Positions 2,829 through 23,139 of a DNA stretch of 26,057 nucleotides are shown here, piece after piece; within the stretch, counting starts at the first letter, position 1; each line of letters opens with the position of its first letter. The notes below the pieces were generated by a model, which saw only the letters and a list, made by a program, of their open reading frames with translations, was not told the DNA's origin and did no database searches. The translations under genes and the position numbers were made by a program. The stretch comes from a virus: positions 1-26,057 of the IMG/VR virus record IMGVR_UViG_3300009620_001863; one strand, written 5' to 3'.

Positions 2829-5800
2829 TACATCTGGAAGCGTCGTCTAGTGGAGAGGCTCTGGTCAACAGCCTGCGTGATAAGGCTGACAATGAGGTCT
2901 TGGCGCTCGTCCAGGAGTCTGTCGAAACCCTTTGTGTCATTGGCTTCGATTTTCACATTCACATTCCCCACGGACGGCCCCCGGCCACCACTTTGGCCTA
3001 GGTCAACTGGTATTGACCTCCCGTCTGGAAGAGGAACAAACGCTTCCGCGCCCACGCCGTCGCCAAAGAGTGCCAACTGAGGGCTGTTGGCCACTCCCCC
3101 AGCCGCATACTTTTTCGTCATCTCCCCAGGCATAACTCCGCCCTTGGAGAACCCAAACAGCCAACCCAAAACGCCACCGATGCCACCGGCCATCTGCATA
3201 CTGGCTGCCGCGATCAGCATTGTTGCGGCCACGATGAGGAGGGCGCTTGCACCCGTTAGGACCAAGGCCGCACCCCCTTGTGCGGCGGCGGCAAGAATGA
3301 GAGCCAAGGAGGCTGCGCCTACGGCGGCGAAGGCATATGCGGCAACTGAGACAAGTGCCACCATTGCAGCGATCCCTGCCGCCGCCATGACAGCGATGCC
3401 TTTGGCAACCAAGAAGGCAACGCTAATCACGAGAATCCCGATTCCAACGACTAGGGCTGCAGTTATGGCAATGACCGCCGCTGTGACGATAGCCGCAATT
3501 CCAGCAGCCGCAGCGACAACAACGGCGGTCATCGCAATGATGGCCGCAACGCCAGAGGCCAATAAAACCATTGTAGCCACGACAATGGAGGTCACGATGG
3601 CCAGAATGCCGCCAACCAGTGTGACGAAGGTCCCCACGAGGGTTCCAAGGATTCCAATCATGGTACCAGCCATAGTAATGATGGCCGTCCCTATAGCGGC
3701 TACTGCGCCGGCTATGGCGGTGAGCCCAGTCGTGATCGTAGTTAAAGCCCCAGTCATCATGGTCCCGATGTTTCCCATCATTTTGCCGAAGCCCCCGGCG
3801 GCTTCGGCTGTATCGCCAGCAGCCTCCGTAGTCGCAGCCGCCATTTCTGTTCCTGCGGCTCCTGCCATAATGTTCGCGGCAATAAGCATTTCAGCAGCGG
3901 CGGCGGCGTTGATGTTAGCGGCAGCCAGCTGGGTGGGTAGCGTGAGGGTCAAGTTAGATGCGATGGCAGTAATTAATTTCTGAACCATCACGGTTACGAG
4001 CATCTCAATCACCTGATTCGCGAAAATCATCCCCAACTTCAGACCTAGTTCACGGGCGTCAAACGGTTCCAACTTGATAACCAACCTGCCTTCTTCGTCC
4101 CTCTCTAATGTGCCCACCAGGCTAGAAGAGATCGCGCTCTCCAGTTCAGAGGCTAATCCGTCAAACATCGTCGTTATCAGATCGTGGGTCATCTGCGCCG
4201 TTGACTCCATGCCCTGCATCATAGTGCGGAATGCCATCTCTGCGCCGAGCCCCATGTCATCCTGCATCATTGCCCACTTCTTGTAGGTGGTCTCTCTGAG
4301 GGCCGTTTCTTCTAGGAGTTGCTCCCGGGCAAGGTCGACTGCCTTTCTTTCGTAGTCACTGAGGGCATCAATTCTATTTTGCAATCCTGCCCTCTGAATG
4401 GCGAAGGCGTCCTTCTCCGCCTGCGTAAGGGTGGCGTTGTCCCGTGCCCCCGCCTCTAGATCTTTAAGCTGGGTCGTCAGGTCGGCAACGAGATACTCCA
4501 TCCTTTGGTTGTAATCCACCCGTGCGCTCTCCAGATTCGCATACTTGACGCCAACAAGACGGATTTCCTCCAGACCTGTGGCGGCAATGACCTGGCCTTG
4601 CTGTTGATAGGTCCCGGCGAATGCTTCGGCATACTTGTGGAGGGCGTCGACCTTCAAGGTGACCAATTTTTCCTCGTAGGCTTCTTTCGCTCTCCCTTCA
4701 CGGCGCTCGGCGTCCCGCACCGCTCTAGCGGCTGCATTATGAGCTTTGGTTGCGCTTCTCAGGGCAGCATGGTGTCTCTTAACACTGGCTAAGTCTTTGC
4801 CATCCCATTCGGCATTGATAGCGGCCACATTGGCTCTATGTTTTTCCCATTCCCCTACCAATTGGTTATTGAGTTCTTCTTCAACGGCGGATTTGTCTTC
4901 AGCGGCATTGTGTGCAGCGAGAATAGATTTCTCCGCGTTCATTAGCTCGACATTCGCCACAGCGAGGGCTCTCTCGCGGCTATCGGCAACCCCCTTCTCT
5001 TGTAGAACCGCGGTCTCTTCCTGAAGCCTCACACGGGCCGCAATGGCGTCATCGATTATGTCTTGGTCATACTTCTTATGAATATTGGCTTCCCTCTCCC
5101 GGGCAAGTTTGGCCACTTGGGGTCCAATTTTATATCCTGCCCATATTTTCTGGAAAATTGTCCCGCGGTCCTCAGCCAACTCTACAAGTTTCGCCCGAAC
5201 GCCTTTCACCTCATCAGCAGCTTGCTCAAGGGCAATCGTCCTGGCGTCATTACTGCTCTTGATGAGTATCTTCTTGGTTCCCTCAGCGAACTCTGTAACC
5301 GCTTCAAGCCTACCGCTCTGCTTGCCCCAACTTTCCTTAAATGCCTCTGAGACATTGAAGACTTCCTTCTTTTGCCAGAAGAAGAAATCAATCATGGCCC
5401 TCTTCATGCCATCAAGCGACGGCTGGATATCCAGCCCCACTTTAAAATCCAGCGCCCGTTTGGCAGTGAAGCCCAGCTCTAGGAGCGAATTGGCGAAATC
5501 AAGCGACGCCTTGGCGCCCTTCCTCATGTTCGCTGGGAGAAGGCTGAGTGTGGCGTTAAGTCCAGAAAGGTTCTTTTTTAACAGGGCTGCCTTTCCCGCA
5601 TCTTGGAATCTTTTGAACGCCCCCCTTGTATCTTCAAGCCACTGCTCCATGTCGGCCAATGGGCCTGCCCCGATCGAGGACAGCGTTTCACCCCAACTTG
5701 CGGCAGATTCCTGTGCTGTATCGTAATCTTCTTTGAGTGCTTTAATCGTCGCTTGGTGTTCGAGATACTCTTTCTCGAGTTTCTTGTCACCTCCATATGT

Positions 5801-7936: not shown

Positions 7937-8446
7937 TTATCGTCTAGGCATACGCGGCATCTGAGGGCTCTTGATTCCGGGCATGGAGGAGGAATGCTTC
8001 TTGGTCGCTGATTCTGACTCTTTTTTCTGCTTTTCCATAGAGTGTTCTTGTGCTTTTCCTCTGGCGTGGCAAAATATCCGGAACGCTTTGACGAAAAAGG
8101 AGGTCTGATCCAGCATTCCTCCTGAAGCAGGCAGTATGCCTGCGTCCTCGGCATCCCTGAGATACGGAATCATGGCGCCAACGCTCTGGATGGCTCCCTT
8201 GTCCTTGAACGGGCAGTCAAATACAGGAGCCTCCCCTGTCCCTCCGCACACCGCGCAGTCTGAGCCGCTACGGTGGCACGATGGGCATGATATTGAGAAA
8301 ACCGCCTGGGTGGCCGGAGTGTCGCAACCCCACGCGGTGCGCCTTAGAAGGGCTGTTGGGTGGTAGTCTCCATCAGCCGTCTTCATGCGGCACAAGTCGC
8401 AAGAAATGTCTAGGCTTCCGCTGAGGCCCCAGACTGCGACTCTGAG
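7937..8446 (-). CDS. Tail assembly chaperone T domain, made as G-T fusion by -1 frameshifting
   Basis: This is the downstream part of a lambda G/G-T-like pair. It has no good start of its own: the first candidate codon (8393-8395) is TTG. Its frame is open upstream through the slippery site of the G gene. Slippage at 8446-8452 joins G residues 1-133 to the 169 residues coded from CTC at 8446-8444 down to 7937, giving a product of about 302 aa. The -1 segment adds SCDLC, and the domain continues with WGCD, then CPSCHRSGSDCAVCGGTGE and FDCP. This cysteine-rich layout looks like a zinc-binding or DnaJ-type CxxCxGxG region. The tail is basic, ending PRMPRR. Position directly before the tape measure supports a role in holding the tape measure for tube assembly. 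Confidence 0.85.
   Translation of the reverse strand, partial: LRVAVWGLSGSLDISCDLCRMKTADGDYHPTALLRRTAWGCDTPATQAVFSISCPSCHRSGSDCAVCGGTGEAPVFDCPFKDKGAIQSVGAMIPYLRDAEDAGILPASGGMLDQTSFFVKAFRIFCHARGKAQEHSMEKQKKESESATKKHSSSMPGIKSPQMPRMPRR
8408..8434 (-). other. Candidate frameshift-stimulating RNA hairpin
   Basis: On the minus strand GTCTGGG (8434-8428) can pair with CCTAGAC (8414-8408) across a 13-nt loop. The stem begins 11 nt after the slippery heptamer and includes the zero-frame stop codon TAG in its 3' arm. The spacer is a little longer than the usual 5-9 nt, so the exact structure is uncertain; other foldings exist. Confidence 0.4.
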
Positions 8447-8844
8447 TTTTTTTCCACCTCCTCCACCATTCCCAAGCCTTCCGTAATCGCGTTTGCAATT
8501 TCCATACGAACATCGCCTGGAATGCGAGAGAGCGTTTTATCCGCAATACGCCTTTTACTGCCAGCTCCTTTTGCGGAAAAGTGGAGATCGGGCCCCCCCG
8601 GAGGGAAGTTTTCCCAGCGGATCAGCCCCACATTCAGGATAGCCATCACCCTCTCACCTGTTTTGGCTGTAGCAGAGGCTTCTCCGCCCCCTAAGTCGAT
8701 GTTTAGAAAGGAGTCCGTCACATACGCCTCCTCTCTCGCCGTCAGTGGGCGGATGATGAACTTGGATTGCTTGTCTTCTTCCAGTTCGCGATCACACTCA
8801 GCGAGGTAAGTGTATTCCTTCGTCGGGTCAATGGGGAGTACCAT
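8410..8844 (-). CDS. Tail assembly chaperone G (zero-frame product)
   Basis: This 144-aa acidic protein begins MVLPIDPTKEYTYLAE and carries a typical chaperone segment, FIIRPLTAREEAYVTDSF, close to phage tail-assembly chaperone families in which the N-terminal region contains a conserved RPLT-type motif. It lies two reading frames before the tape measure, exactly where lambda gpG sits. Near its end the message holds the -1 slippery heptamer, so a minority of ribosomes should make a G-T fusion. Normal termination adds SESQSGASAEA after Asn133. The start ATG (8842-8844) has an AAGG about 9 nt upstream, better than most starts in this window, and follows the largest gap near the tail genes (51 bp). 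Confidence 0.85.
   Translation of the reverse strand: MVLPIDPTKEYTYLAECDRELEEDKQSKFIIRPLTAREEAYVTDSFLNIDLGGGEASATAKTGERVMAILNVGLIRWENFPPGGPDLHFSAKGAGSKRRIADKTLSRIPGDVRMEIANAITEGLGMVEEVEKNSESQSGASAEA
8446..8452 (-). promoter_or_regulatory. Programmed -1 ribosomal frameshift slippery site, A AAA AAC
   Basis: On the minus strand the G reading frame reads GAA AAA AAC, so the heptamer A AAA AAC lies exactly in the X XXY YYZ phase used for simultaneous -1 slippage. Eleven codons later the zero frame stops at TAG (8410-8412). The -1 frame continues into the T domain up to 7937. Eleven nucleotides after the heptamer, a 7-bp stem (GTCTGGG with CCTAGAC, one G-U pair, 8408-8434) could act as the stimulatory structure. 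Both site and position match the conserved G/G-T frameshift of siphophages. Confidence 0.88.
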
Positions 8845-8884: not shown

Positions 8885-8910
8885 AAAAAGGTGGGCTAGT
8901 CGTCCCCCAC
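8885..8910 (-). terminator. Candidate intrinsic terminator at the end of the SprT-like gene
   Basis: On the minus strand GTGGG (8910-8906) can pair with CCCAC (8895-8891) around a 10-nt loop, followed by C and then TTTTT (8889-8885). The hairpin overlaps the stop codon of the SprT-like gene. The stem is short (5 bp) and the loop large, so termination would be weak or partial. It would separate the DNA-metabolism island from the chaperone/tape measure genes. Confidence 0.4.
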
Positions 8911-9255
8911 TGCGGCTTGGTACACTCGGCTAAAGGCAACTCCCCATTCTGGCCCATGGGATTCACCAGCCGGACAACTAGACCAGCACAGGGCATGGGC
9001 ATATTCGTGGAGTAGCGTGTCCTTGGCCATGAGGAAGTCCATCCCCTGGGAGATGACAATAAGGAAGTGCCTTTTGCCCTTTTGTGGGCGCTTTAGGTCG
9101 CAGTATCCATACTCCGTCTTCAACTGCACGAGGCGAATCCGAACGGGGTTCTCACAGGGGAGTTCCTCCTGCAAGTAGTCCAGGACGGCAACTAAGCATT
9201 TCCTGTACTCAGGCGTTCCGGGGCGTGGAGCGGGCTTAAATTTCGGCGCAGGCAT
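8896..9255 (-). CDS. SprT-like zinc metalloprotease
   Basis: This 119-aa protein contains HEYAH at residues 83-87, the HExxH zinc and catalytic motif, followed by SHGPEWG at 99-105. In SprT/SPRTN-like proteins the His of that second segment is the third zinc ligand and Trp packs next to it. The length suits a minimal SprT-like (minigluzincin) domain with no accessory DNA-binding part. Cellular relatives cut DNA-protein crosslinks; in phages the substrate is usually unknown. The gene start overlaps the end of the metallophosphoesterase gene by 20 bp and has a purine-rich GAGAGAG just upstream. A DNA repair or virion-processing role is inference. Confidence 0.85.
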   Translation of the reverse strand: MPAPKFKPAPRPGTPEYRKCLVAVLDYLQEELPCENPVRIRLVQLKTEYGYCDLKRPQKGKRHFLIVISQGMDFLMAKDTLLHEYAHALCWSSCPAGESHGPEWGVAFSRVYQAAVGDD

Positions 9256-10525
9256 CTCTCTCGCGGTATGTCACGCCGCCAAACTCCGCAATACCTCTCT
9301 TGATGACTACTGGTGTCTGTAATGCGACGCCTTCCTTGGGGAATATCGAGACTACCCCGAATCCGGTAGTCCAAGTGCTTGGGCCCGTCTTGAAGATCTC
9401 CCCGTGGCCAGCGCCGTCTCTAAGGTCATTCTTGGCCATCATCCCGCAGGTCATCCAGTCAGCCCATGGATTGACTACTGTGGGGGTAGATTGGTACTGG
9501 GGGCGGTGGACATGGCCCGACATCCCCGATAGACCGTATTTGTTGAGTTCCTTGTCTGCTGGGAACCTCCCGGCGCTCGTCCCGTGGGTTACCACGAAAC
9601 AGCCCCCGTAAATTTTCCATGTTTGCTTGCTCATCTCTTGGCGGTCGCGCTCGTTCGGCGCGAGGATAGCGTCGTTGGAAACAAGGGAGATTTGCAACTC
9701 TTTCAGGGAAAATAATTCGGCGAAATCGAGACAGGACAATGAGGCGAGCGCAGGGGACACATTGCAGAGATAGCGGATCAATCTGTATTCGTGGTTCCCC
9801 ACTAAAAAATCGATATTCGCGTCGGGGGCCGCCTCTCGGATTGGGCGCAGAATGTTCTCCACCGTCCATGTGATCTCTCCTTGCAGATCGAGCAATTTGT
9901 TGGGATTCTTGGACCAAAATCCCACAGAATTGAAATCTACAACGTCCCCATTGAGGCAAACGACATCCGGTTGCGTCCGACGGCAAACATCAATAAACAC
10001 TTCGAGGGCAAATCTGTCCACCTCAAGTCCGTGGAAATCGGATCCACAGACGAGAAGAATTTCATCCCCCTTATTCTTCCTCTCAAACGCTCCACACCAG
10101 GGGCGCACACTTTCAGCGTAGTATTCCTGGACCGTCTCCTCGCTTTTGAGACGCGCTCGGCGATCTCGATAAGATTTTGTAGTTCTCGTATCTCGAAGGC
10201 CGGATGCTCGCTGGAATTCTTCGTGATTTCCGAAATGGTCGTAAACGATGGTTTCGGGGAAATGCCCGTATTTCTTATATTTTGCTCGACTGCAAGTCCC
10301 CGGGTAAGCAAGTAGTTCATCGTCGGCAACCCGAAGGATGTCACGGATTAGTTCCCCTTCCTTGGCCGCGCTGCCATCCTCCATAAACTTGCGGCGAGCT
10401 TCTGCCGCCTCCTCTGTAGCGGCGGCCAACGCCTCCTTTTTCTCAGCCCTGACGGAAGGAGGACAGTCCTCAAGCCAAGCCCTGAGGCTAGAGTCTTGCG
10501 CCTCAGGTTCTTTTCGCTCTTTCAT
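9236..10525 (-). CDS. Calcineurin-like metallophosphoesterase with N-terminal DNA-binding-like region
   Basis: The 429-aa protein carries the full metallophosphoesterase motif set: SDFHG at 162-166 (D-x-H), NGDVVD at 192-197 (GDxxD), GNHEYR at 243-248, THG at 313-315 and GHVHRP at 337-342. These bind two metal ions and act on phosphodiesters or phosphomonoesters; relatives include Mre11/SbcD nucleases and phage protein phosphatases. Residues 70-130 (PGTCSRAKYKKYG, then HFGNHEEFQRASGL) resemble the small helical repeat often attached to phage nucleases and HNH enzymes, which suggests a nucleic acid substrate. The first 60 residues are charged and helical. GGGAG lies just upstream of the ATG, one of the clearest Shine-Dalgarno sites here. 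The exact substrate cannot be told from sequence. Confidence 0.9.
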   Translation of the reverse strand: MKERKEPEAQDSSLRAWLEDCPPSVRAEKKEALAAATEEAAEARRKFMEDGSAAKEGELIRDILRVADDELLAYPGTCSRAKYKKYGHFPETIVYDHFGNHEEFQRASGLRDTRTTKSYRDRRARLKSEETVQEYYAESVRPWCGAFERKNKGDEILLVCGSDFHGLEVDRFALEVFIDVCRRTQPDVVCLNGDVVDFNSVGFWSKNPNKLLDLQGEITWTVENILRPIREAAPDANIDFLVGNHEYRLIRYLCNVSPALASLSCLDFAELFSLKELQISLVSNDAILAPNERDRQEMSKQTWKIYGGCFVVTHGTSAGRFPADKELNKYGLSGMSGHVHRPQYQSTPTVVNPWADWMTCGMMAKNDLRDGAGHGEIFKTGPSTWTTGFGVVSIFPKEGVALQTPVVIKRGIAEFGGVTYRERDACAEI

Positions 10526-10775: not shown

Positions 10776-11100
10776 GAATTAGAGAACGGCGCAACACCGC
10801 CAAAGCTTTCAGAACTTCTGGCGGATCAAGACCTTGCGGCGCTTCGGTATCGAAGATACCCAGTCTGTCCAAGCATTGCATAAGCCATCTTGCAGATTCT
10901 GTTGCATAAATAAGGCGTTCTCGTTCCCAATACAGTCGCCCGATCACAGTTATGCGAATGGCAATTTTCCCGGGCCCCATTTTAATTGGGCCCAAAGACA
11001 GGAGTTCGGGAAGAGATATTGGGCGCCACCACCCAGAAGGCATTTCGTCTATCCGCCTCCCCAGGAACCCCTCATGGGACGCATCTACTTTTATAGCCAC
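10663..11100 (-). CDS. Hypothetical protein in the DNA-metabolism island
   Basis: I do not recognise this 145-aa protein. Its N-terminal half looks like a beta-rich fold with IAIRITVIGRLYWE, followed by a helical segment (SARWLMQCLDRLGIF, then PEVLKALAVLRRSLIHV). The last 38 residues lie within the 113-bp overlap with the next gene and look less structured. It starts with GTG at 11098-11100, overlapping the last codons of the resolvase gene by 10 bp, which suggests coupling to it. No catalytic motif is visible. A DNA-associated function is suggested only by its neighbours. Confidence 0.65.
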   Translation of the reverse strand: MAIKVDASHEGFLGRRIDEMPSGWWRPISLPELLSLGPIKMGPGKIAIRITVIGRLYWERERLIYATESARWLMQCLDRLGIFDTEAPQGLDPPEVLKALAVLRRSLIHVKGLQTPEQAGARRLAESDGLWVQSVPSGGAVDNPD

Positions 11101-11579
11101 TGCCTTCTCCCGTATTCCGCAAGCAACGCCGCGTCCGCGATTCCTTGGTTCACCTTTTTCTTAAGGGGTAAGCCAAGTTCCGGCCAAAGTTCAACGGCGT
11201 GTCGAACAGCCTCCTCTTTAGTTTCCCCCTTGGGGCAGTCGGGAAGCATTTCCTTTTGCCACGCACGGGGTAGCACATTGAGAACGGGAAAACCTCTCAC
11301 CTCAATAATGGCAAGAAGACCCCCATAACCTTTGCCAAAAGTAAACATTGAGGTGACGCCCTGTTTGGGCATCGCGTGTACCCGCTCTATGCAAACACAG
11401 GGATCCATTGATTGGCCTAAATAGTGGTCAATCCGCAGAAAGTCAATGTTTTTGGCCTCGACAAGGGGCATACGAGCCCACCCAACAAGACTCCCTTTGC
11501 GGTCAACCGCCGCCATAGCCCCCTTTATACCAGGGTCTATTCCGAAGAAATATGCCTTCTCCCACCCATCATGGGACAC
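11091..11579 (-). CDS. RuvC-like Holliday junction resolvase (RNase H fold)
   Basis: The 162-aa protein begins with a RuvC signature, FFGIDPGIKGAMAAVD (catalytic Asp15), followed by a strand ending CIERVHAM with Glu65, then KQGVTSMFTFGKGYGGL and VLPRAWQKEML, and closes with NQGIADAALLAEYGRR with Asp149. This order and length match phage RuvC-type resolvases that cut branched DNA during replication, recombination or packaging. The position of the fourth acidic residue of E. coli RuvC (three before Asp149) appears to be Gly here, a difference seen when aligning by eye. It starts at GTG (11577-11579) inside the last codons of the zinc ribbon gene. Its likely role is debranching concatemers before packaging. 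Confidence 0.9.
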   Translation of the reverse strand: MSHDGWEKAYFFGIDPGIKGAMAAVDRKGSLVGWARMPLVEAKNIDFLRIDHYLGQSMDPCVCIERVHAMPKQGVTSMFTFGKGYGGLLAIIEVRGFPVLNVLPRAWQKEMLPDCPKGETKEEAVRHAVELWPELGLPLKKKVNQGIADAALLAEYGRRQWL

Positions 11580-13553: not shown

Positions 13554-16500
13554 TTAGGCGGAACTTAGGATTCTCGTGGCAACCTCTTCAATCCGCACGG
13601 TTGCATCTGGTGTGAAGCGCTTAATTACGCACTTGATTTTGTAGTACCTTTTGTTTGACTGAAAAGATCCGTAGAAACGAACATCGTCGGTGTAGGTCAC
13701 ATCGTCACTAGAGGTGGAGTAGTATGTCTGCACTTCGGCGTAGCGCTCGTAACAACTACCTTCCCACATTCTGTTGAGCGCTGCTGGCTCGCTAAACTTC
13801 GTTGTGTTTCCATCGAAAATGGTGCCCTCGTCGAGAACATCAACGGAAGGTATGCACAGAATCAATCTTGACTCATCAACACCGACAACGCCGGCATCCA
13901 AAACTGTAGTTACATAGTCCTCGGCGGCGGCGATGGTGCTACTAACTTGGAGGTAGGTTTCCCCTGCTGGGACAACTAGGGCATTTTTCACTCCTGGCCA
14001 ACTGGCGTCCCTCTGGGAGTTAAGCATAATGGAACTTATCCAATTAGGATTCCCCCCAACCTCGTAACCAGGCCATACTAGGATGCAGGGCTGCGAGGAG
14101 GTCTGTCCCGACTTGAAGACTGGTTTGAAAAAGACCTGCGCCTCATCCGGCCCGAGTTGGGAGATGATGGTTGACTCGTCCCTCGTGCGACTAACCTTGA
14201 GGGCGAGACCCCATGAGGTTCCTGTGATGCCCTGAAGGCGCACATCGTAGTAATCTGGAATGGCTCCCTCTTCGCGAACCACAGAGCTGCTATACAGAGT
14301 GGGAGGAACCTCCTCGCCGTCTGGGACGCCGTATGTAGAGCCCTGGAATTCAGGAGGGAATCTCAGGGAGGCGTAGGTGCCGTCGAAGGATAAAGAATCC
14401 TCAGAAGTGGGGCATGGGTATTTGGGTGGAACTGTTTGTGTAAGAAAGTGGCGTTTGGCATCATAGAGCGTGAATGTTACGGCTACCTGTGGTGCTTGGT
14501 CCGGTTGGTAAACTGCTCCCGAAACGGAAATGGGAGAAATTGCGAATGTGTATAGATGGTTTGGTTCGGCTTCCCAAAATGTGAACTCTTCTTCCTCCAC
14601 GCGGCCAAGCGAAGTCCACCGTGAAGAAATATCGTCTTCTGCAAACCCCTCAAACAGGTCTGAGGCATCGTTTTTTATCCAAGCCTCGCTGGGGCCACCC
14701 CCCTCATCAACTGATTGCACCATGTTCCAAACTAGGTATCCATTCAGCCTTGCGTCTGCCGATCTTGACCCTGAGGTTAACCATGGCGTTACCGAGTTGG
14801 GGCCACCCGCCATTCCCACCGCCAACGAGTCGGGAAGGGTAAGCGGATCGACTGATGGGGGATTCCAGGTGAGAGAGATTCCCCACCTAATAGTCCCATC
14901 TGGCATCTGCTTCATAACTCGGGTTCCGCTTAGACCAGAAGGTGCCATCCCCTGGAATGAGGTTGGGTGGAAGACGCCCCGACTGACGCTAAAGTCAACT
15001 TGTGGCACTTGGGAAAGAGCTGCGCTAAGGGTTATATCGTTGGTGTCGACTGAAGCAACGGTGACGGTTTGGTTGGTGCCCCTGTAGTTTAGAATGCTTA
15101 ATATGGTGTAAGCGTCGATGTCGTAGGTGCCTGATAGTGGCGGCTCAACCAAGAAGACGCGGTTTTCACTTCCTAAATCGTTTTCAAAACTCTTAACTTT
15201 CAGGAGTTGCTTCTTCCTGAATACCCCAGACTCTGGGGTGTATGCGTCATCCGAGTCATAAATCTGCACGGCAGAGCCGGCGACGAGTCGGTCTACGAAC
15301 CAAGCTGGCGCAGTAATCTTGTCGTTAGTGTAATAACTGGAACTATTCCCGATTGCGGAAGGGTTGGCTTCAACAAAACTATCAAGGATTAGGGTTTCCC
15401 CAGCGGGAAGAGTTCCAACGGCGGTGGTGAATGCCCCCGGAACAGTAATAACGGGGGCTGCCGGGGTGCCGACATCAAGGGCGGTCGCCATTGTCTTCTC
15501 TTCAAAGCCGCTCCCCGTAGCACCCTGAGGTAATGTTATAGAGTTTGCCTGCGCGGTCACATCCCATCCAGCCGCAGCCGCACCGCCCAGGGGGGGGCCA
15601 CCTGGGCTCCCAAGCGAAGACAGTTGGGCTGTTGCTGCGCCATCGTCATAGATTCTCTCGTCGTATTGGCTTGCGCTTATCTTCCTGAAGCCGTCTTTTG
15701 TGGTCTCGATTGATTCTACTATCCAGTCCGATTCGCTCCACGCTGGAGTTGCCAAGAAGGCGGGATTCCCGGTGTAGTCATCTGAAACAACTTCGGTAAT
15801 TGGGAAGGGCTGCCCAGCGGGGCTTGTCCAACCCTGTCCGACATTTGGTGTGTATTCTTCGTGGTCGCCAACTCCCGTTACAACCACAAGAATCTGCAAG
15901 TCATCACTGAAGGCGATATCGCGATCTGGAACAACTGCTGTCTGGTCTTCATAATCCGCGTTGTCGAGAGGCTCGTATGCCCCCCACCCGGCGATATTGA
16001 AGGGGACGCTTTCTATGAGATCCCTGTGCTGGATTTGAATCCTGTCTCCCACTTGGGCGGCAAGACCTTCCAGAGAAACCTCCATCTGTAGCGTTTTTCG
16101 CCTGTATTGGAGTTTCAGCAATTGGTAGTAGGCGTAGCTTTCAGCAGCCGCCCGGCCTGTTATCCCCACTACGAAATCGTTAGAAATTTTCCTCTCGTTA
16201 GAGAAGGTGGCTGACTCGAAACCAGGAAGCGTCATTCGCACGGTTTCCCTGTCATAGTTGTACTTCTTCTCCAAATATTGAATCTCTATCTCGGTGGGTA
16301 CATCCACAGTGGAGACTTCGTTGACAGACATAGACCCCTGCCTGATCGCGCTTTCAGTAAACACTTGGGAAACGCTGCGCGTCATATCGGTGACCGCCCT
16401 AAACCGAGTTCCCTCTCTGACGAGAGTGGCTCTCCCAACACTAAGAACTTTGTCAATTGCTTCAAAAAGGCTACTGTCCTCGTCGAAAGCCCCGTTGAAC

Positions 16501-19388
16501 TCGCAGCGCGGCCCAATAATGACAACATTGAAGGCCATTGTCTGCAGAAGGGGAATGCCTGGATAAGTGCCTACATCGCTCAAGTCTTCCTCAGTAACGA
16601 GGACACCACCCCCCGAATCAACCTGCATGCTCTGGACGGTTACGGTAATGGGAACACCCTCTGCCCCGCTTAACGCATCCGGGTCAAGGTGGACTTTGTC
16701 GCCTGGGTTCAGCGCAATCCAAAATCCCGCGTCTCCAAAAGTCGGGTCGGTATTACTGATTCTTAGCGCAGAGTTCGGGGCATATGTCGTTAAATCAATC
16801 TGATAGCATACCCCGTAGGGGCTCCCATGGATGTATGTTTCACTCTGCTTATCTGGGTCCATGGCGCCTGCCGCACTGTCCACCCCACAGAACTCGGCCC
16901 AGTCCAAGAAACTCTGCCAATCTACATCTGTGTCATCGTTCACATAGTTTCCTCCCCCATAAACCTCGCTCAGGAGCAGATTGAGGGTAATCCAAGCGGG
17001 ATTCCTAAAGTCGGCGCTGTCGGCGTGGATAGTTGACGCTGTTCCTGTATTGCTGTACTGCTTCACATCGTTGCCGTCCACTACGACTGTCAGTTCTGGG
17101 ACTTGCGAATTCGCCGTGTAATTTACGATATCGCTCAACTCCACCCAAGCCGTCCCTGGCATAACCCCTAGTCCGCCGCCTGCATATGTCCTGTCCTCGA
17201 AGGTTACGGAGCTTAAGTGGCACGAACTTGTGCAGGCACCAGGGGCCCCGGAGTCAGGATTGGTGGTGTATTCGGTAGGGTAGTTGTCTGGTCTTCCAAC
17301 GGCGCACACCCTAAAGTCCGCTGAACCTATCGCGCTGGAGAACACCGTGGAGGCGGCGAACATTCTGTTGGAATAGTCGGCTCCCGACACGCTAGATCCG
17401 GGGATATTCCCATTTGAATCCCAGAAAGCAGAACTTTGCATTTCCATGGTTATGTTGCCGCTCCCACTAGTGTCATAATTGTCCATATAGTAGAAGGATC
17501 CATTATAGGTTCCCGTAGTCGGGTGGATTGTGATCGTTTGCCACATAGCCCCCGTATATTTGCCCCTGATCATGAAATATCCCAGGGTTTGCCAACCGTC
17601 GGTATTGTCGTGTCGGCTGTACTGGATCTCGAAGGTCTGAGAGTGAGCTACAGTGGCGCCGCTGGTGTCGAGCCTGTAAAGGCCGCCCGAGAACTCCAAG
17701 TTGAAAATGACTTTGTCTAATATAGCCCCTTGTGGTGCGGACCAAGTCGCCCACACGGATTTATAGATAAACATCGCCGGAACGCCGCCGGTAATGTTGC
17801 TTCGGTCGGCGCCTGCGGTTTCGATGGTTCCCGGGTCCCCCCAGACACCAGAAATGGTCGCGGTGTTGGACGCCCCGCCAGTGGCTATCCAGCCAGGGGC
17901 GTTAATTAGGGTCTTGTGCGAACCGTCATAAGTCCCACCCTTCCAGCCTCCCGTTGTTGAGCCTACTGACCCGTAATATGACCAGTATTTTTGAGTGGCA
18001 TCTGGGTCCGCACCCGGGTATGGAACGACAAACATGAAATTGGCGCCTTGTAATTCTTTTACCTTGAACTTAGTCCAGCCTAACATTGGACTAGTGGAAG
18101 CTACTCTGTTGGTCGGCGTTCCCACCCCAGACGCCTCTTCTAGTTCAAACTCGTAAGGCCCATATTTTTTTCGGGAATGGTTGCCGGCGCTGTTGAAGTT
18201 GTAAAAGTCCACGGTCTGCGTAAAACACTCACTCGTCCGAACTTCCGTGGACCAATGTTGCCGATTACTAACTCCAAATTCATGGTTTTTCCCTTGGAAC
18301 TGGCCTGTGATCGAAACGAGGTCATCGACTGCGAAGCTGCCAGGGGTAACTACTTTCCAGCGGGTTGCGTTTTGGTAGCCTGAGGTTGTGGCGAAGTTGC
18401 CCGTATGGGTCCCCACGGTATCTACTAGCCTGGCCGGTCTGCTGGCTCCCACATCGGACTTGTCGTCGAGAATCCAGTAAATATACTTATTGTCCCGTTC
18501 CTCCCCAGGGAAGTAGTTGAAGCCCCCGCTAAACTCCCTTGCGCTGGCAAAATTGTCAAAGGGGAATTGGTTTTGGCTACTTCCCCAATCCAACCCAGAG
18601 CCATCGGGGTAGGGGGGGAAGTTGCCCTGATCCGAGCCGAAATTAACATCCCAAAACCTAAGCCCAGGAACTATCGTAAACTTCATGTCCATGATCATCC
18701 CCACATCCACCGTTGTCGAAAAAGTGGTTCCGAAGTTGGCCGTGTAGAACGGATCAGTTGTCCCCGGGTGGACAGGCACATCCGCGCCCATCGAAACCCT
18801 CGCTGTTGCTGCGTATGACGCTAGTGGCAGGTCGTCGAGCAAAAGCGTGTCAACATCAGTGCCCTCCGTGTTGTCCGTGATCTGCCCAACCTTCCTAAAG
18901 GGACCTTCTCCTAGCAGATTAAGGTAGTACAGGGCGACGGAGTTCGTGCCAAATGCAAGCACCTTGCCTCCCCCCACAATCCCCCCGATTCGAGTGGTGC
19001 CGTAGATGAGTGGCATTCCGAACCCCTGACCCCGCCTTGTTGAAATCCCTGACCAACCGTAATGGTCACTCTGTTTGTTTCCAAAGTTGCTCGTCTGTTC
19101 TTGCCCATATTTATCAGCGTAGTGTTTTATGGTTACCCCGATGCCAATAAGCGCCCCGATGCCCACGGCAACCCAGCCAGAAGGCAACCCAATAACATTG
19201 ATGTGATCGCCGTCGCAGATGGAGGCTGACGGGCTAAGTGGCTCGCCGCCCCTAATCACCAGGGCTTTCTCATAACCTGAGGGGATGAGATCGGCTGCCG
19301 TCAAACTCTGTTCCCAAGGCAACTCCTGCGAAACGGCGTCCCGCGTCAGCTGCTTGAACCCGTTTCTCTGTATTACGGTTACTGACAT
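13554..19388 (-). CDS. Host specificity/central tail tip protein, lambda gpJ-like
   Basis: This 1944-aa protein is much longer than lambda gpJ (about 1130 aa). Residues 35-70 look like the beta-grasp start of J homologues (KALVIRGGEPLS, then DGDHINVIGLPSG), followed by a hydrophobic segment at 71-87. Next come GMPLIYGTTRIGG (124-136) and the conserved YYLNLLGEGPF (154-164). Near residues 1030-1150 is the hub-like region (EIEIQYLEKKYNYDRETV, then TLQMEVSLEGLAAQVGDRIQ). The rest is Gly/Ser/Thr-rich, probably beta-sandwich and fibronectin-like. About 850 residues between the N-terminal part and the hub look like inserted receptor-binding or structural domains. It overlaps the NlpC gene by 10 bp and has GAGG 7 nt before its ATG. 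Confidence 0.9.
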   Translation of the reverse strand: MSVTVIQRNGFKQLTRDAVSQELPWEQSLTAADLIPSGYEKALVIRGGEPLSPSASICDGDHINVIGLPSGWVAVGIGALIGIGVTIKHYADKYGQEQTSNFGNKQSDHYGWSGISTRRGQGFGMPLIYGTTRIGGIVGGGKVLAFGTNSVALYYLNLLGEGPFRKVGQITDNTEGTDVDTLLLDDLPLASYAATARVSMGADVPVHPGTTDPFYTANFGTTFSTTVDVGMIMDMKFTIVPGLRFWDVNFGSDQGNFPPYPDGSGLDWGSSQNQFPFDNFASAREFSGGFNYFPGEERDNKYIYWILDDKSDVGASRPARLVDTVGTHTGNFATTSGYQNATRWKVVTPGSFAVDDLVSITGQFQGKNHEFGVSNRQHWSTEVRTSECFTQTVDFYNFNSAGNHSRKKYGPYEFELEEASGVGTPTNRVASTSPMLGWTKFKVKELQGANFMFVVPYPGADPDATQKYWSYYGSVGSTTGGWKGGTYDGSHKTLINAPGWIATGGASNTATISGVWGDPGTIETAGADRSNITGGVPAMFIYKSVWATWSAPQGAILDKVIFNLEFSGGLYRLDTSGATVAHSQTFEIQYSRHDNTDGWQTLGYFMIRGKYTGAMWQTITIHPTTGTYNGSFYYMDNYDTSGSGNITMEMQSSAFWDSNGNIPGSSVSGADYSNRMFAASTVFSSAIGSADFRVCAVGRPDNYPTEYTTNPDSGAPGACTSSCHLSSVTFEDRTYAGGGLGVMPGTAWVELSDIVNYTANSQVPELTVVVDGNDVKQYSNTGTASTIHADSADFRNPAWITLNLLLSEVYGGGNYVNDDTDVDWQSFLDWAEFCGVDSAAGAMDPDKQSETYIHGSPYGVCYQIDLTTYAPNSALRISNTDPTFGDAGFWIALNPGDKVHLDPDALSGAEGVPITVTVQSMQVDSGGGVLVTEEDLSDVGTYPGIPLLQTMAFNVVIIGPRCEFNGAFDEDSSLFEAIDKVLSVGRATLVREGTRFRAVTDMTRSVSQVFTESAIRQGSMSVNEVSTVDVPTEIEIQYLEKKYNYDRETVRMTLPGFESATFSNERKISNDFVVGITGRAAAESYAYYQLLKLQYRRKTLQMEVSLEGLAAQVGDRIQIQHRDLIESVPFNIAGWGAYEPLDNADYEDQTAVVPDRDIAFSDDLQILVVVTGVGDHEEYTPNVGQGWTSPAGQPFPITEVVSDDYTGNPAFLATPAWSESDWIVESIETTKDGFRKISASQYDERIYDDGAATAQLSSLGSPGGPPLGGAAAAGWDVTAQANSITLPQGATGSGFEEKTMATALDVGTPAAPVITVPGAFTTAVGTLPAGETLILDSFVEANPSAIGNSSSYYTNDKITAPAWFVDRLVAGSAVQIYDSDDAYTPESGVFRKKQLLKVKSFENDLGSENRVFLVEPPLSGTYDIDAYTILSILNYRGTNQTVTVASVDTNDITLSAALSQVPQVDFSVSRGVFHPTSFQGMAPSGLSGTRVMKQMPDGTIRWGISLTWNPPSVDPLTLPDSLAVGMAGGPNSVTPWLTSGSRSADARLNGYLVWNMVQSVDEGGGPSEAWIKNDASDLFEGFAEDDISSRWTSLGRVEEEEFTFWEAEPNHLYTFAISPISVSGAVYQPDQAPQVAVTFTLYDAKRHFLTQTVPPKYPCPTSEDSLSFDGTYASLRFPPEFQGSTYGVPDGEEVPPTLYSSSVVREEGAIPDYYDVRLQGITGTSWGLALKVSRTRDESTIISQLGPDEAQVFFKPVFKSGQTSSQPCILVWPGYEVGGNPNWISSIMLNSQRDASWPGVKNALVVPAGETYLQVSSTIAAAEDYVTTVLDAGVVGVDESRLILCIPSVDVLDEGTIFDGNTTKFSEPAALNRMWEGSCYERYAEVQTYYSTSSDDVTYTDDVRFYGSFQSNKRYYKIKCVIKRFTPDATVRIEEVATRILSSA

Positions 19389-19870
19389 ACCATCCTCACT
19401 GCCGATGTTGGCTTAAGAGCCATTCTCCTCCGCGCCAACCTGATTACCCCAGAACGACAAGCCTGAACTAGATATTTGATGTCCTTGCACACCACCACAG
19501 CGTGGTAGTGGGCGCATGGGTTTATTCCTCCGCCCTCGTAGATATGCAAGTCTCCAGCCTCGGGGGTCTCGGGATCTACCTCCCGAATAACATTGCCGAG
19601 GGCTTGAACAGCCCACGATGCGGGATCTCCCTCCGTATTTACCATCACATCAGAGAAGTGTCGCGTCATCGGGTTGAACTCATCCCTGACAAGGGTACCC
19701 CTCTCTAATGCTGGAATCGCCTTTTCGACAAGTTCTATGTGGTCAGCCGCCGCTCTTATCCAAAGACCAAAGCAGTCAACCCCCTCCTTAGGAGAGAACC
19801 CGCCGAGCTTGAAGGGTGTCCCCACCAAGCCTTCTGCACTTTCGGCGATGCTTTCTCCAAGGCTGCTCAT
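19379..19870 (-). CDS. Tail tip NlpC/P60 peptidase (lambda gpK-like)
   Basis: This 163-aa protein has GVDCFGLW at 30-37, the NlpC/P60 nucleophile motif with catalytic Cys33, and HYHAVVV at 121-127 providing the general-base His (probably His123). Other family marks are the N-terminal GTPFKLGG and the AGDLHIY segment at 105-111. The family cuts peptide stems of peptidoglycan; in lambda-like tails the domain sits at the tip and helps penetration or is needed in tail assembly. Lambda gpK also has a JAB domain at its N-terminus, which is absent here. The ATG overlaps the stop of the L-like gene as ATGA, and the J-like gene follows, giving the order L-K-J. Confidence 0.9.
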   Translation of the reverse strand: MSSLGESIAESAEGLVGTPFKLGGFSPKEGVDCFGLWIRAAADHIELVEKAIPALERGTLVRDEFNPMTRHFSDVMVNTEGDPASWAVQALGNVIREVDPETPEAGDLHIYEGGGINPCAHYHAVVVCKDIKYLVQACRSGVIRLARRRMALKPTSAVRMVCQ

Positions 19871-20544
19871 CGATCATTCCCAAAGGGGATGTGAACAAAC
19901 CCCCCGTAATTGTTTATATTGTCTTTGCCGGAACAGCCGTTTGCCCCATCGAATGTGTAGTCGCAGGTTAGCACTGTCCCCGAATAAGCGCATCGGGCCC
20001 CGCGAAAGATGTGGCCACAGCGGGATCGGAAGCACCGCCGACCAGGGAAGGTGTGGAAGAGGAAGTTCCGTGGCCCCAAAGTCCACTGGACAGCCGTATC
20101 CACCATGCTCACCTCCTTCATCAGGAATGGTTGCTCTAGGATTTTATCGCCATTATCTGAGCCACTGCCAACTGAGGGGGCTGGGGCTGACCCATCTGCA
20201 ATCCTTACTAGGTACATTGTGGCTGAACGCCCCGCCAGGCTCTCGTTCTGGCGTATCCAAGACTTCACCAGACCTGTGGGATCTGGCATCGTCACCTTCC
20301 ACTCTTCGTAGTTAGAGGCGTCGCTGGTCTCCTTCAGCGGGTCAATCGTAAATGGGGTGGGGCTATAGGTTTCGGGATCCTCGCCATACACCTCAGTGAA
20401 CGCCACGGACACCGGGTTGGAGGCTACTCGAAGGTATTTAGTGTCCCCAGTATTTATATCCGAGTAAGCCACCGAAATTAGCCAGCAGTAGGCATCCGTG
20501 GAAGCCAATTGTAGCACTGCTGACGAAGGAAGCGTTCTGGTCAT
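19867..20544 (-). CDS. Minor tail protein L-like, with C-terminal Cys cluster (Fe-S or metal site)
   Basis: The 225-aa protein ends with a cluster of Cys at 171, 176, 185, 194 and 204. The sequence around it (RCAYSGTVLTCDYTF, then NGC and NNYGGFVHIP) follows the C-terminal signature of lambda gpL-type proteins: C-x-YTG, C-x-x-TL, C, N, FGGF-x-x-IP. Lambda gpL is known to bind an iron-sulfur cluster through C-terminal cysteines. The N-terminal 160 residues are beta-rich and match the DUF1833/minor-tail style. Its place before the NlpC/P60 and J-like genes is the classic L-K-J order. The ATG lies 13 nt after the U-run of an intrinsic terminator and has no visible Shine-Dalgarno, so expression probably relies on read-through. 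Confidence 0.88.
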   Translation of the reverse strand: MTRTLPSSAVLQLASTDAYCWLISVAYSDINTGDTKYLRVASNPVSVAFTEVYGEDPETYSPTPFTIDPLKETSDASNYEEWKVTMPDPTGLVKSWIRQNESLAGRSATMYLVRIADGSAPAPSVGSGSDNGDKILEQPFLMKEVSMVDTAVQWTLGPRNFLFHTFPGRRCFRSRCGHIFRGARCAYSGTVLTCDYTFDGANGCSGKDNINNYGGFVHIPFGNDR

Positions 20545-20741: not shown

Positions 20742-21968
20742 CTAAGGACTATTGTCCGTTGGATCGTCAATGGTTCCATCGGAAAGGAAGGCGGATTCAA
20801 CCTCAGCACCGTAGGCAAGCCAGAGGCTGCGTGAAGCGGGGGCTGTAAGGATTGCACCATCGTCAGATAGATCCGCCCCGTTAGCGGTTATCTTGCAGGT
20901 AGCGTTTTCAACCACATACCCAGTTTCTTCCCCAATGTCCAGCGAGTTGATTTCTGTGACAGGAACACCGAACAGGAATTGTTGAACCTTGGTTCCAGAT
21001 GTCCCAGCAATACCAGCCACGGTTTGGAAGGTTCCCGTTGTGACCTCGATCATCTTGTTGGCAAGCAACTCGGCGTTGGCCGCATCGTAGGCCAATGTGG
21101 TGATTGCCAGCGTTGGCTTCGACTCGTAGATGCAAGCGTAGCTTCCAGCCTTGAGGACATTTACATCTTTGTAGATGTCATAAGTGTTGTTCATGTTTAA
21201 TTCCCATGAACTGGTCGGTGGGGTTTTGTCCTCGTTGACAGCCCAACAGAGCTTGTCAGCCCTCGACAAGGGGGTCGGCGTAACGGAATCAAAGGGTCCT
21301 GCTGGATCGTTCTGGCTTCCTTCCACGAGATCCAGAACTCCAAGGAACTCAAAATTGGCATACAGGAGGTCTCCAGCGGTTCCGCTAAAAGTAACATTCC
21401 CCATAGCCCCAGCAATGGTGTATTGCCGCCCGTCCTTCCAGAAGACAATAGTTAAAGTGCATTGCTTATCTTTTCCGTCACCCATTTCGGAAGCCCCATC
21501 AGTTGGCTCAGGCGGAGTGTTGCTAGGAATCCACACATTCCACTTTTCGGCGGTTCCAAACCGCGAGGAAGCTCCAGTTAAGTCTTCCCAAGTGGCGTAG
21601 TAGTTAAAGAAGCCGCAACCGCGCAATGCCAGCATCCACTGTGGCGTCCCTTGCTTCCAAACCAAGCCTCCAGTAGGGGAGGTAGAGACATCATCGGGAT
21701 CATCGTTAGAACCCATGACATCACACTTAAAGGTAACCCTGGCAAACTGGGTTCCAACAGAATCCGTCTGCTCTGAAGCAAGGCTTGCGGAAAGAATGTC
21801 TCTCTCAATCAAGCCGACTTCAGGCGTAAACGACATCTCGTAGCATGGAATCCATCCGAATGTTGTATCCGGGGGGCCTGCGAGTGTTGCCGGAGTCCCA
21901 GGCGTCGCTTCGGCGCAAACGCCGACGACGGATTTCCGTTCTAGAAGTCTGGTGTCTGTAATGGCCAT
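20742..21968 (-). CDS. Major tail (tube) protein, second copy
   Basis: This 408-aa protein is a clear paralogue of the preceding 380-aa protein. Shared blocks run through the whole length: MAITxTRLLERK at the start, PCYExSxTPExGxIERD, VGTQFARVTFKCDxMGS, KDGRQY with GNVxxSGTAGDLxYANFEFLG, DPAGxFD with PTPLS, SSWELNMNNxYDIYKDxNVxKAG, and GEExGYxxENAT. Compared with the first copy it has extra residues near 30-40, 90-105 and at the C-terminus (ending DDPTDNSP). The position after the tail terminator candidate and size suggest the major tail tube subunit, with the family assignment by context. AAGGA sits about 8 nt before the ATG, a clear ribosome binding site, unlike the first copy. Confidence 0.82.
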   Translation of the reverse strand: MAITDTRLLERKSVVGVCAEATPGTPATLAGPPDTTFGWIPCYEMSFTPEVGLIERDILSASLASEQTDSVGTQFARVTFKCDVMGSNDDPDDVSTSPTGGLVWKQGTPQWMLALRGCGFFNYYATWEDLTGASSRFGTAEKWNVWIPSNTPPEPTDGASEMGDGKDKQCTLTIVFWKDGRQYTIAGAMGNVTFSGTAGDLLYANFEFLGVLDLVEGSQNDPAGPFDSVTPTPLSRADKLCWAVNEDKTPPTSSWELNMNNTYDIYKDVNVLKAGSYACIYESKPTLAITTLAYDAANAELLANKMIEVTTGTFQTVAGIAGTSGTKVQQFLFGVPVTEINSLDIGEETGYVVENATCKITANGADLSDDGAILTAPASRSLWLAYGAEVESAFLSDGTIDDPTDNSP

Positions 21969-21996
21969 GTGTTATTCCTTATGCTACAAAAACAAA

Positions 21997-23139
21997 TCAG
22001 AGTGCGATCGTTGGGAAGGTGGCGCTGAAGCTGCTTGACCTGTCGCAGTCCCCTCCGACGGCAAGGTAAACCTCTTTCTCGTCTAATGCCGTTCCCGTGG
22101 CAATGCACTTGCTGGTGGCATTTTCGGTCAAGTAGCCGTTCTCCTCTCCGCTATCCAGAGAGGTTATCTGAGTCTTTCTTGCGCCCAGCCATAGGCTGTT
22201 GACCTTGCCGGAACCAGTCGATCCCATTACTTGCTGGAAGTTCCCCGTGGTTGGGGGATCGGTAATCATTTTAGAGAGCAAAAGGTCCGCATCGGCTCCG
22301 TCAAACGCCAAGGTCGTGGTCGTCAGGGTTGGCTTGCGCTCGGTGATGGTGCAATATTTGCCAGCCTTGGTGACATTGGTGTCCTTATAGATGTCATAGG
22401 CATTGTTCATGTTCAATTCCCATGAAGACATCTTGACGGTCTCTGTGACGGTTGCTTCCCAAAGCTCCCAGTAAGTTTCCCCGTCCTGAGAGAGCGGCGT
22501 TGGCACCGTTGCGTCAAAGGCGCCGGCTGGGTCGGAACCCACAGTGCTTACCGTCAGGATGCCTAAGAACTCGAAGTTGGCGTATGCCAAATCACCAGCG
22601 GTTCCAGACAGGGAGACGTTCCCCATACAGCCCGTCATTAGGTATTGGCGACCATCGCTAAACCATTTAATTGAAATGGTCCCCATTAGGTCAGTTCCTG
22701 CCGCAGGGACAGTATGACTCGTAACAATCTGGACAGGATTGTTCGATGGAACGAGGATGTTCCAGTTTTCGAACCCTTCGGCTCCAGCGGAACCCGTATC
22801 TGCCCAAGCAGCGGCTCCCCAGTAAAAGCCACAGCCAAGCATTGCCTCAGTCCATTGAGGAGCCCCAACTGTGGTGCCGCCGCCTGTGACTTCATCTGAA
22901 CCCATAGCGTCGCACTTGAATGTAACGCGAGCAAACTGGGTGCCTACAGCGTCAACAGTCTCTGGAGCAAGGCTCGAGGTATACAAGTCCCGCTCAATAA
23001 AGCCGATCTCAGGGGTGCAAGAGATCTCGTAGCACGGAAAGGATTTGAAGGCTGCGGCTGTGGTGCCTGGGTTTACTGCTTCAAGTCCTACGCTAATGCT
23101 TTGCTTGCGTTCAAGGAGTCGGGTACTGGTAATGGCCAT
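21997..23139 (-). CDS. Major tail (tube) protein, first copy
   Basis: The 380-aa protein is paralogous to the next gene over its full length (conserved IERD, VGTQFARVTFKCD, SGTAGDLxYANFEFLG and SSWELNMNN blocks). Tail tube proteins are the most abundant tail parts and stack as hexamer rings around the tape measure. This gene begins 5 bp after the stop of the terminator-like gene and has an A-run rather than a Shine-Dalgarno before its ATG. Placement between tail completion genes and tip genes fits lambda gpV. One copy may instead be a specialised ring, such as the first or last tube ring, or a decoration protein; sequence alone does not say which copy builds the main tube. Confidence 0.82.
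   Translation of the reverse strand: MAITSTRLLERKQSISVGLEAVNPGTTAAAFKSFPCYEISCTPEIGFIERDLYTSSLAPETVDAVGTQFARVTFKCDAMGSDEVTGGGTTVGAPQWTEAMLGCGFYWGAAAWADTGSAGAEGFENWNILVPSNNPVQIVTSHTVPAAGTDLMGTISIKWFSDGRQYLMTGCMGNVSLSGTAGDLAYANFEFLGILTVSTVGSDPAGAFDATVPTPLSQDGETYWELWEATVTETVKMSSWELNMNNAYDIYKDTNVTKAGKYCTITERKPTLTTTTLAFDGADADLLLSKMITDPPTTGNFQQVMGSTGSGKVNSLWLGARKTQITSLDSGEENGYLTENATSKCIATGTALDEKEVYLAVGGDCDRSSSFSATFPTIAL

Follow-up and report, generated by a model that had tools for sequence, protein, structure and literature searches.

A tail assembly chaperone with a distinct Cys-rich T part, very probably expressed by −1 ribosomal frameshifting, in a tailed phage fragment

The frameshift mechanism producing the tail assembly chaperone proteins G and G-T was established in phage lambda and is described as widely conserved (Xu, Hendrix and Duda 2004, as cited in PMC5009743). 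We analysed a stretch of 26,057 bases from an IMG/VR virus record, a fragment of an uncultured tailed phage, which is referred to below in its entirety as the window. Two of its frames, designated G and T, very probably encode a phage tail assembly chaperone in two parts, with −1 programmed ribosomal frameshifting as the means of expression; coordinates of these and other features are collected in Table 1. The preliminary description had likened the pair to lambda G/G-T in position and logic, while judging the sequences to be unrelated to those of lambda. The latter judgement was borne out: hhalign related neither G nor T of the window to its lambda counterpart (Prob 0.2 and 0.1, respectively).

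Table 1. Coordinates of features in the window and, in the last four rows, T parts of named phages with the heptamer at the junction
Feature	Coordinates	Strand	Heptamer	Remarks
Tape measure protein, 1700 aa	2828..7930	−		PHROG 1533 tape measure, E 2e-44; Pfam PhageMin_Tail, E 1.9e-29
T, −1 frame part, 169 codons	7937..8446	−		Cys-rich domain and GILPASGGMLDQ motif; read only as the C-terminal part of G-T
Candidate 3′ stimulatory RNA fold, two-tier stem (8 bp outer, 7 bp inner)	8394..8442	−		Predicted fold
G, short tail assembly chaperone form, 144 aa	8844-8410	−		Open reading frame with ATG start
Slippery heptamer	8452-8446	−	A AAA AAC	In phase with G, direct reading; recurs in L002-L004 and L036
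Shine-Dalgarno-like GAGGAGGTGG	8454..8463	−		Immediately precedes the heptamer; not followed by a start codon
SprT-like gene, small	8896-9255	−		Pfam E 3.2e-08; immediately before G
Metallophosphoesterase	9236-10525
Resolvase	11091-11579
J-like tip gene	13554-19388	−
Minor tail gene	19379-19870	
gpL-like gene	19867-20544	
Tail tube-like genes	20742-23139	−		About 12 kb upstream of G-T, not adjacent
Alteromonas phage P24 (L176) T	3007-3312		AAAAAAC	No annotated CDS
Agrobacterium phage JP1 (L177) T			AAAAAAC	Annotated as a truncated hypothetical gene
Rhizobium phage L338C (L178) T			GGGAAAC	Annotated as a truncated hypothetical gene
Rhodobacter phage RcTiptonus T			AAAAAAG

The heptamer occupies the phase X_XXY_YYZ of the G frame, with 0-frame codons GAA (8454), AAA (8451) and AAC (8448-8446); the G stop codon, TAG (8412-8410), is situated 11 codons past it. 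Starting at 8446, the −1 frame meets no stop before the TAA at 7939-7937, 6 nt ahead of the tape measure ATG (7930). There is no ATG, GTG or TTG in the first 17 codons of the −1 frame; the earliest T-frame start after the heptamer is TTG 8395 (T residue 18), the next being ATG 8383. Three claims of the preliminary description were thereby confirmed: a heptamer in the phase of −1 slippage near the end of G, a −1 frame open for 169 codons right up to the tape measure gene, and a downstream frame with no credible start of its own, as a start at the first TTG would lose the invariant Cys16. The predicted G-T fusion has 302 aa, with the junction ...E-K132-N133-L-R. Among 20 forward genes this is the only in-phase heptamer of the X_XXA_AAZ or X_XXT_TTZ type that is close to where its gene ends (11 codons) and is also followed by a long open −1 frame (169 codons). 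Since it is the sole such heptamer, and since it is kept in relatives found without use of the heptamer, the junction is more than a chance arrangement.

Three contigs (L002-L004), the nearest relatives, were found by the G protein alone, the heptamer being absent from the query. Their similarity to the window's G covers residues 1-133, ending exactly at the heptamer, and the similarity of T to its relatives starts right there; identity to the window is 45% for G and 34% for T. All three contigs read GCA AAA AAC TAA, with heptamer and phase kept and the G stop following immediately; the −1 frame contains a relative of T, then the tape measure gene. The comparison of related phages proposed in the preliminary description thus showed conservation of the heptamer in the same phase. 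The same arrangement, heptamer and phase were observed in L036; however, this locus counts for less as it was ascertained on the heptamer (by a search with a W.NFP-plus-heptamer pattern).

A search at the DNA level for the T peptide pattern G[LIM]LPxxGG..[DA]Q, containing no heptamer, produced at least 120 viral stretches; with near-copies and non-relatives removed there were at least 62 T-family loci, among them the window, L036 and L007, which lies on the contig of L002. A locus was counted when its G frame reached 70 codons and AAAAAAN or GGGAAAN stood in phase. Among the matches listed, an in-phase A/G-AAA heptamer joined T to an upstream G frame in 51 of 62 non-redundant T-family loci: 24 with AAAAAAC, 19 with AAAAAAA, 3 with AAAAAAG and 5 with GGGAAAN (the 51 include L036, found with the heptamer in the search pattern). 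The G stop codon directly followed the heptamer in 21 of these 51 listed loci. Divided by phase, 54 of the heptamer-bearing loci among the matches listed were in the T phase versus 22 and 20 in the other two, with A runs longer than six entering more than one phase. Of the 11 uncounted members, five are described further below; L064 ends at a contig edge, L109 and L119 have the heptamer in phase but lack a sufficiently distant upstream ATG, the in-phase heptamers of L079 and L107 are of other types (GGGGGGC and TTTTTTC), and L081 has none. On this comparative sequence evidence, with heptamer and phase kept, the reading of the pair as a frameshift fusion is supported.

Both parts of the window's predicted fusion belong to the family. 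A profile built from 28 other G proteins of the family gave G 77.6 bits, where none of 1000 shuffles exceeded 4.4; for T, a profile that excluded the window, L007 and L036 gave 52.1 bits, and the highest of 1000 shuffles scored 10.2. Of 30 family G members, 4 matched PHROG 313 (Tail assembly chaperone; best E 7.4e-05); the window's own G did not reach E 0.01 against PHROG 313, and its relation to known chaperones appears only via these links of its family. Neither G nor T of the window had a useful match in Pfam, NCBIfam or PHROG; nothing useful came from tblastn of the window proteins in cultured phages, from the tape measure query in viral contigs or from the G profile in bacterial genomes.

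We infer the following course of events. Most ribosomes would read G and terminate 11 codons past A AAA AAC; a minority would move back by a single base while on the heptamer and read on in the −1 frame, making the 302-aa G-T, likely at a low level. By analogy with lambda, G would coat the tape measure protein, the product of the next gene, and the T part of the fusion would recruit tail tube subunits. A_AAA_AAC is reported in PMC5009743 to be much less shift-prone in E. coli than A_AAA_AAG, which counts against the frameshift reading.

Slippage would probably be aided by an RNA fold beginning 3 nt downstream of the heptamer. In the predicted structure an outer 8-bp stem pairs 8442-8435 with 8401-8394, and an inner 7-bp hairpin pairs 8434-8428 with 8414-8408. 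The hairpin that the preliminary description had placed 11 nt after the heptamer does exist; however, it is only the top of this longer fold. Across the family the RNA after the heptamer is more stably folded than its dinucleotide shuffles, at a mean z of −1.64 ± 0.24 versus −0.24 in upstream and further-downstream controls; when the T protein was preserved and only synonymous codons were drawn, the mean z was −1.04 ± 0.20, compared with −0.16 to −0.44 for other parts of T. Taken singly, the fold of the window is marginal, its z being about −1.5 to −2.1 and its p, under preservation of the protein, about 0.07.

The GAGGAGGTGG stretch ahead of the heptamer is the strongest anti-Shine-Dalgarno match of the entire minus strand (−16.2 kcal/mol), and the family shows an average dip in anti-Shine-Dalgarno energy at this place. 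We rejected it as an internal Shine-Dalgarno stimulator: resampling of synonymous codons gave p = 0.07 for the window and a mean z of −0.2 for the family. The strength of the match may only reflect the choice of the Val-Glu-Glu-Val codons.

Transcriptional slippage would present another way to G-T: RNA polymerase would add one A on the A7 run, and some of the mRNAs would encode the whole of G-T in one frame. The run has 7 A in the window and 8-9 A in 10 of the 51 family members among the matches listed, close to the length of 9 A at which polymerase slippage is known according to PMC5009743; yet L002-L004 and L036 have only 6 A, and the run is down to 3 A in four members with G GGA AAN, the phase being unchanged. 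Because the phase is the same at 3 and at 6 A, polymerase slippage is rejected as a general cause; moreover, the tandem-slip heptamer accounts for all of the A-run variants, and the enrichment of 3′ RNA structure also speaks for the ribosome. We consider slippage of the polymerase very improbable.

Even less probable, in our estimate, is that T is a separate gene with a non-canonical or coupled start and that the heptamer is incidental. The two in-frame start codons named above, together with the strong Shine-Dalgarno-like stretch, could be taken in its favour, and the window's nearest relative has an ATG at T codon 12, in principle a possible separate T start. Either of the window's starts, however, would drop a cysteine present in all aligned T domains, there is no start codon at a usable distance past the Shine-Dalgarno-like stretch, the similarity among T relatives begins upstream of both starts, right at the slip site, and 34 of the 51 members among the matches listed have no ATG, GTG or TTG between the heptamer and the first Cys of T.

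A separate T does exist in five distant relatives (L061, L077, L104, L157 and L159), which have no slippery site and carry a separate G along with a T gene with its own start. In the preliminary description, relatives whose T part kept a start of its own while the heptamer was disrupted were named as evidence that would refute the fusion; such relatives were found, yet their T genes bear a weakly G-like upstream domain. The separate G proteins match the family G alignment (profile E 2.7e-20), and the N-terminal part of the T gene resembles G weakly (hhalign Prob 80.7, E 1.3e-5). With this domain of its own in the T gene, a protein that unites the two parts seems to be produced here as well. 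These five relatives suggest that gene duplication can replace frameshifting, the duplication step being indicated by a weak profile match. In this family frameshifting and gene duplication can be compared in a natural setting as means of supplying chains with both chaperone parts.

Least probable of all, to the point of being negligible, is an error of sequencing or assembly in the homopolymer that splits one continuous G-T gene: a junction on a run of 7 A would fit it, but as a general explanation it is already refuted, given that dozens of diverged phages, on independent contigs from different samples, share the frame relation with A runs of 3-9 and that the G stop is usually no more than 12 codons from the slip site.

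In the frameshift reading, which we prefer, T is added to G as a C-terminal extension, and this extension is a Cys-rich, probably zinc-binding domain. We aligned 44 T parts picked by eye from the 51; among these listed matches Cys16 was present in 44 of 44, Cys19 in 43, Cys41 in 41 and Cys78 in 44. A second quartet (Cys54, 57, 64 and 67), which the window has, was observed in about 17-18 of the 44 listed T parts. The invariance of GxLPxxGG...Q across the 44 is partly due to the use of this motif in selection. The Cys part of the window's T taken without the GxLPxxGG motif scored 12.6 bits versus 10.4 for composition shuffles; being barely above shuffles by itself, it leaves the homology of T to rest on the full domain. 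The AlphaFold models were of high confidence, with a mean pLDDT of 89.5 for T and 87.9 for G; sequence and fold searches of PDB with G and T found no solved structure that matches, and a viral structure library returned small, mostly unnamed proteins with weak E-values but high probability.

We lean, if only slightly, to the view that the family is a widespread unnamed class of tail assembly chaperones. The T part of this class would be a zinc-binding domain with four Cys and GxLPxxGG...Q (and the second quartet in about 17 of 44); it would normally be expressed by −1 frameshifting and, in at least five phages, as a separate G′-T whose first part would derive from a duplicated G. The family is large, lacks matches in Pfam and NCBIfam and has hardly any in PHROG; T is unannotated or truncated even in the cultured phages P24 and JP1.

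Genes for head-tail adaptor, tail terminator, tail tube-like, tip (J-like) and tape measure proteins are all on the minus strand of the window. The order is tube-like, gpL-like, minor tail and J-like tip genes, then resolvase, metallophosphoesterase and SprT-like genes, then G-T and tape measure. The G-T pair is therefore directly before the tape measure gene and not directly after a tail tube gene; the tip gene and non-tail genes intervene. In L003 and L004 the order is canonical: tube, G-T, tape measure, one more gene, gpL-like and NlpC-like (names are given where matched). As G-T and the tape measure gene follow the tip gene and non-tail genes in the window, the claim of the same position as in lambda turned out to be only half right: the logic and the place ahead of the tape measure gene agree, and the place after the tail tube gene and the full gene order do not.

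Two further observations concern the tail module. The module as a whole (2828-23139) is rearranged, with G-T and the tape measure gene downstream of the J-like tip gene. The adjacent genes 20742-21968 and 21997-23139 have similar N-termini (MAITDTRLLERK and MAITSTRLLERK) and are probably a duplicated tail tube-like gene.

The closest described system is lambda G/G-T, with which the window shares a short G, a −1 shift (here predicted) near the end of G, a T that exists only as an extension and a tape measure gene as the next one. Unlike in lambda, the tail tube-like genes of the window are distant from the pair; furthermore, the lambda T-frame ORF has no cysteine, whereas the window's T has four near-invariant ones. 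The −1 cassettes of dnaX and IS elements (Shine-Dalgarno sequence, heptamer and stem) are similar in the A-rich heptamer and downstream stem, and differ in that the Shine-Dalgarno-like stretch of the window is just a few nt from the heptamer and is unselected beyond codon choice. Searches with family T queries led to four named phages, P24, JP1, L338C and RcTiptonus, in each of which an in-phase heptamer links a relative of T to the preceding gene and a tape measure gene is annotated downstream; all four have the same T-type domain as the window and none is recorded as having a joined gene. The mechanism is a textbook one, so the window itself is no surprise; it is the joined-on Cys-rich half that gene annotation usually misses. 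Judged by sequence, there is good support for identifying the window's locus as a frameshift tail assembly chaperone of a familiar kind whose T part is distinct and Cys-rich.
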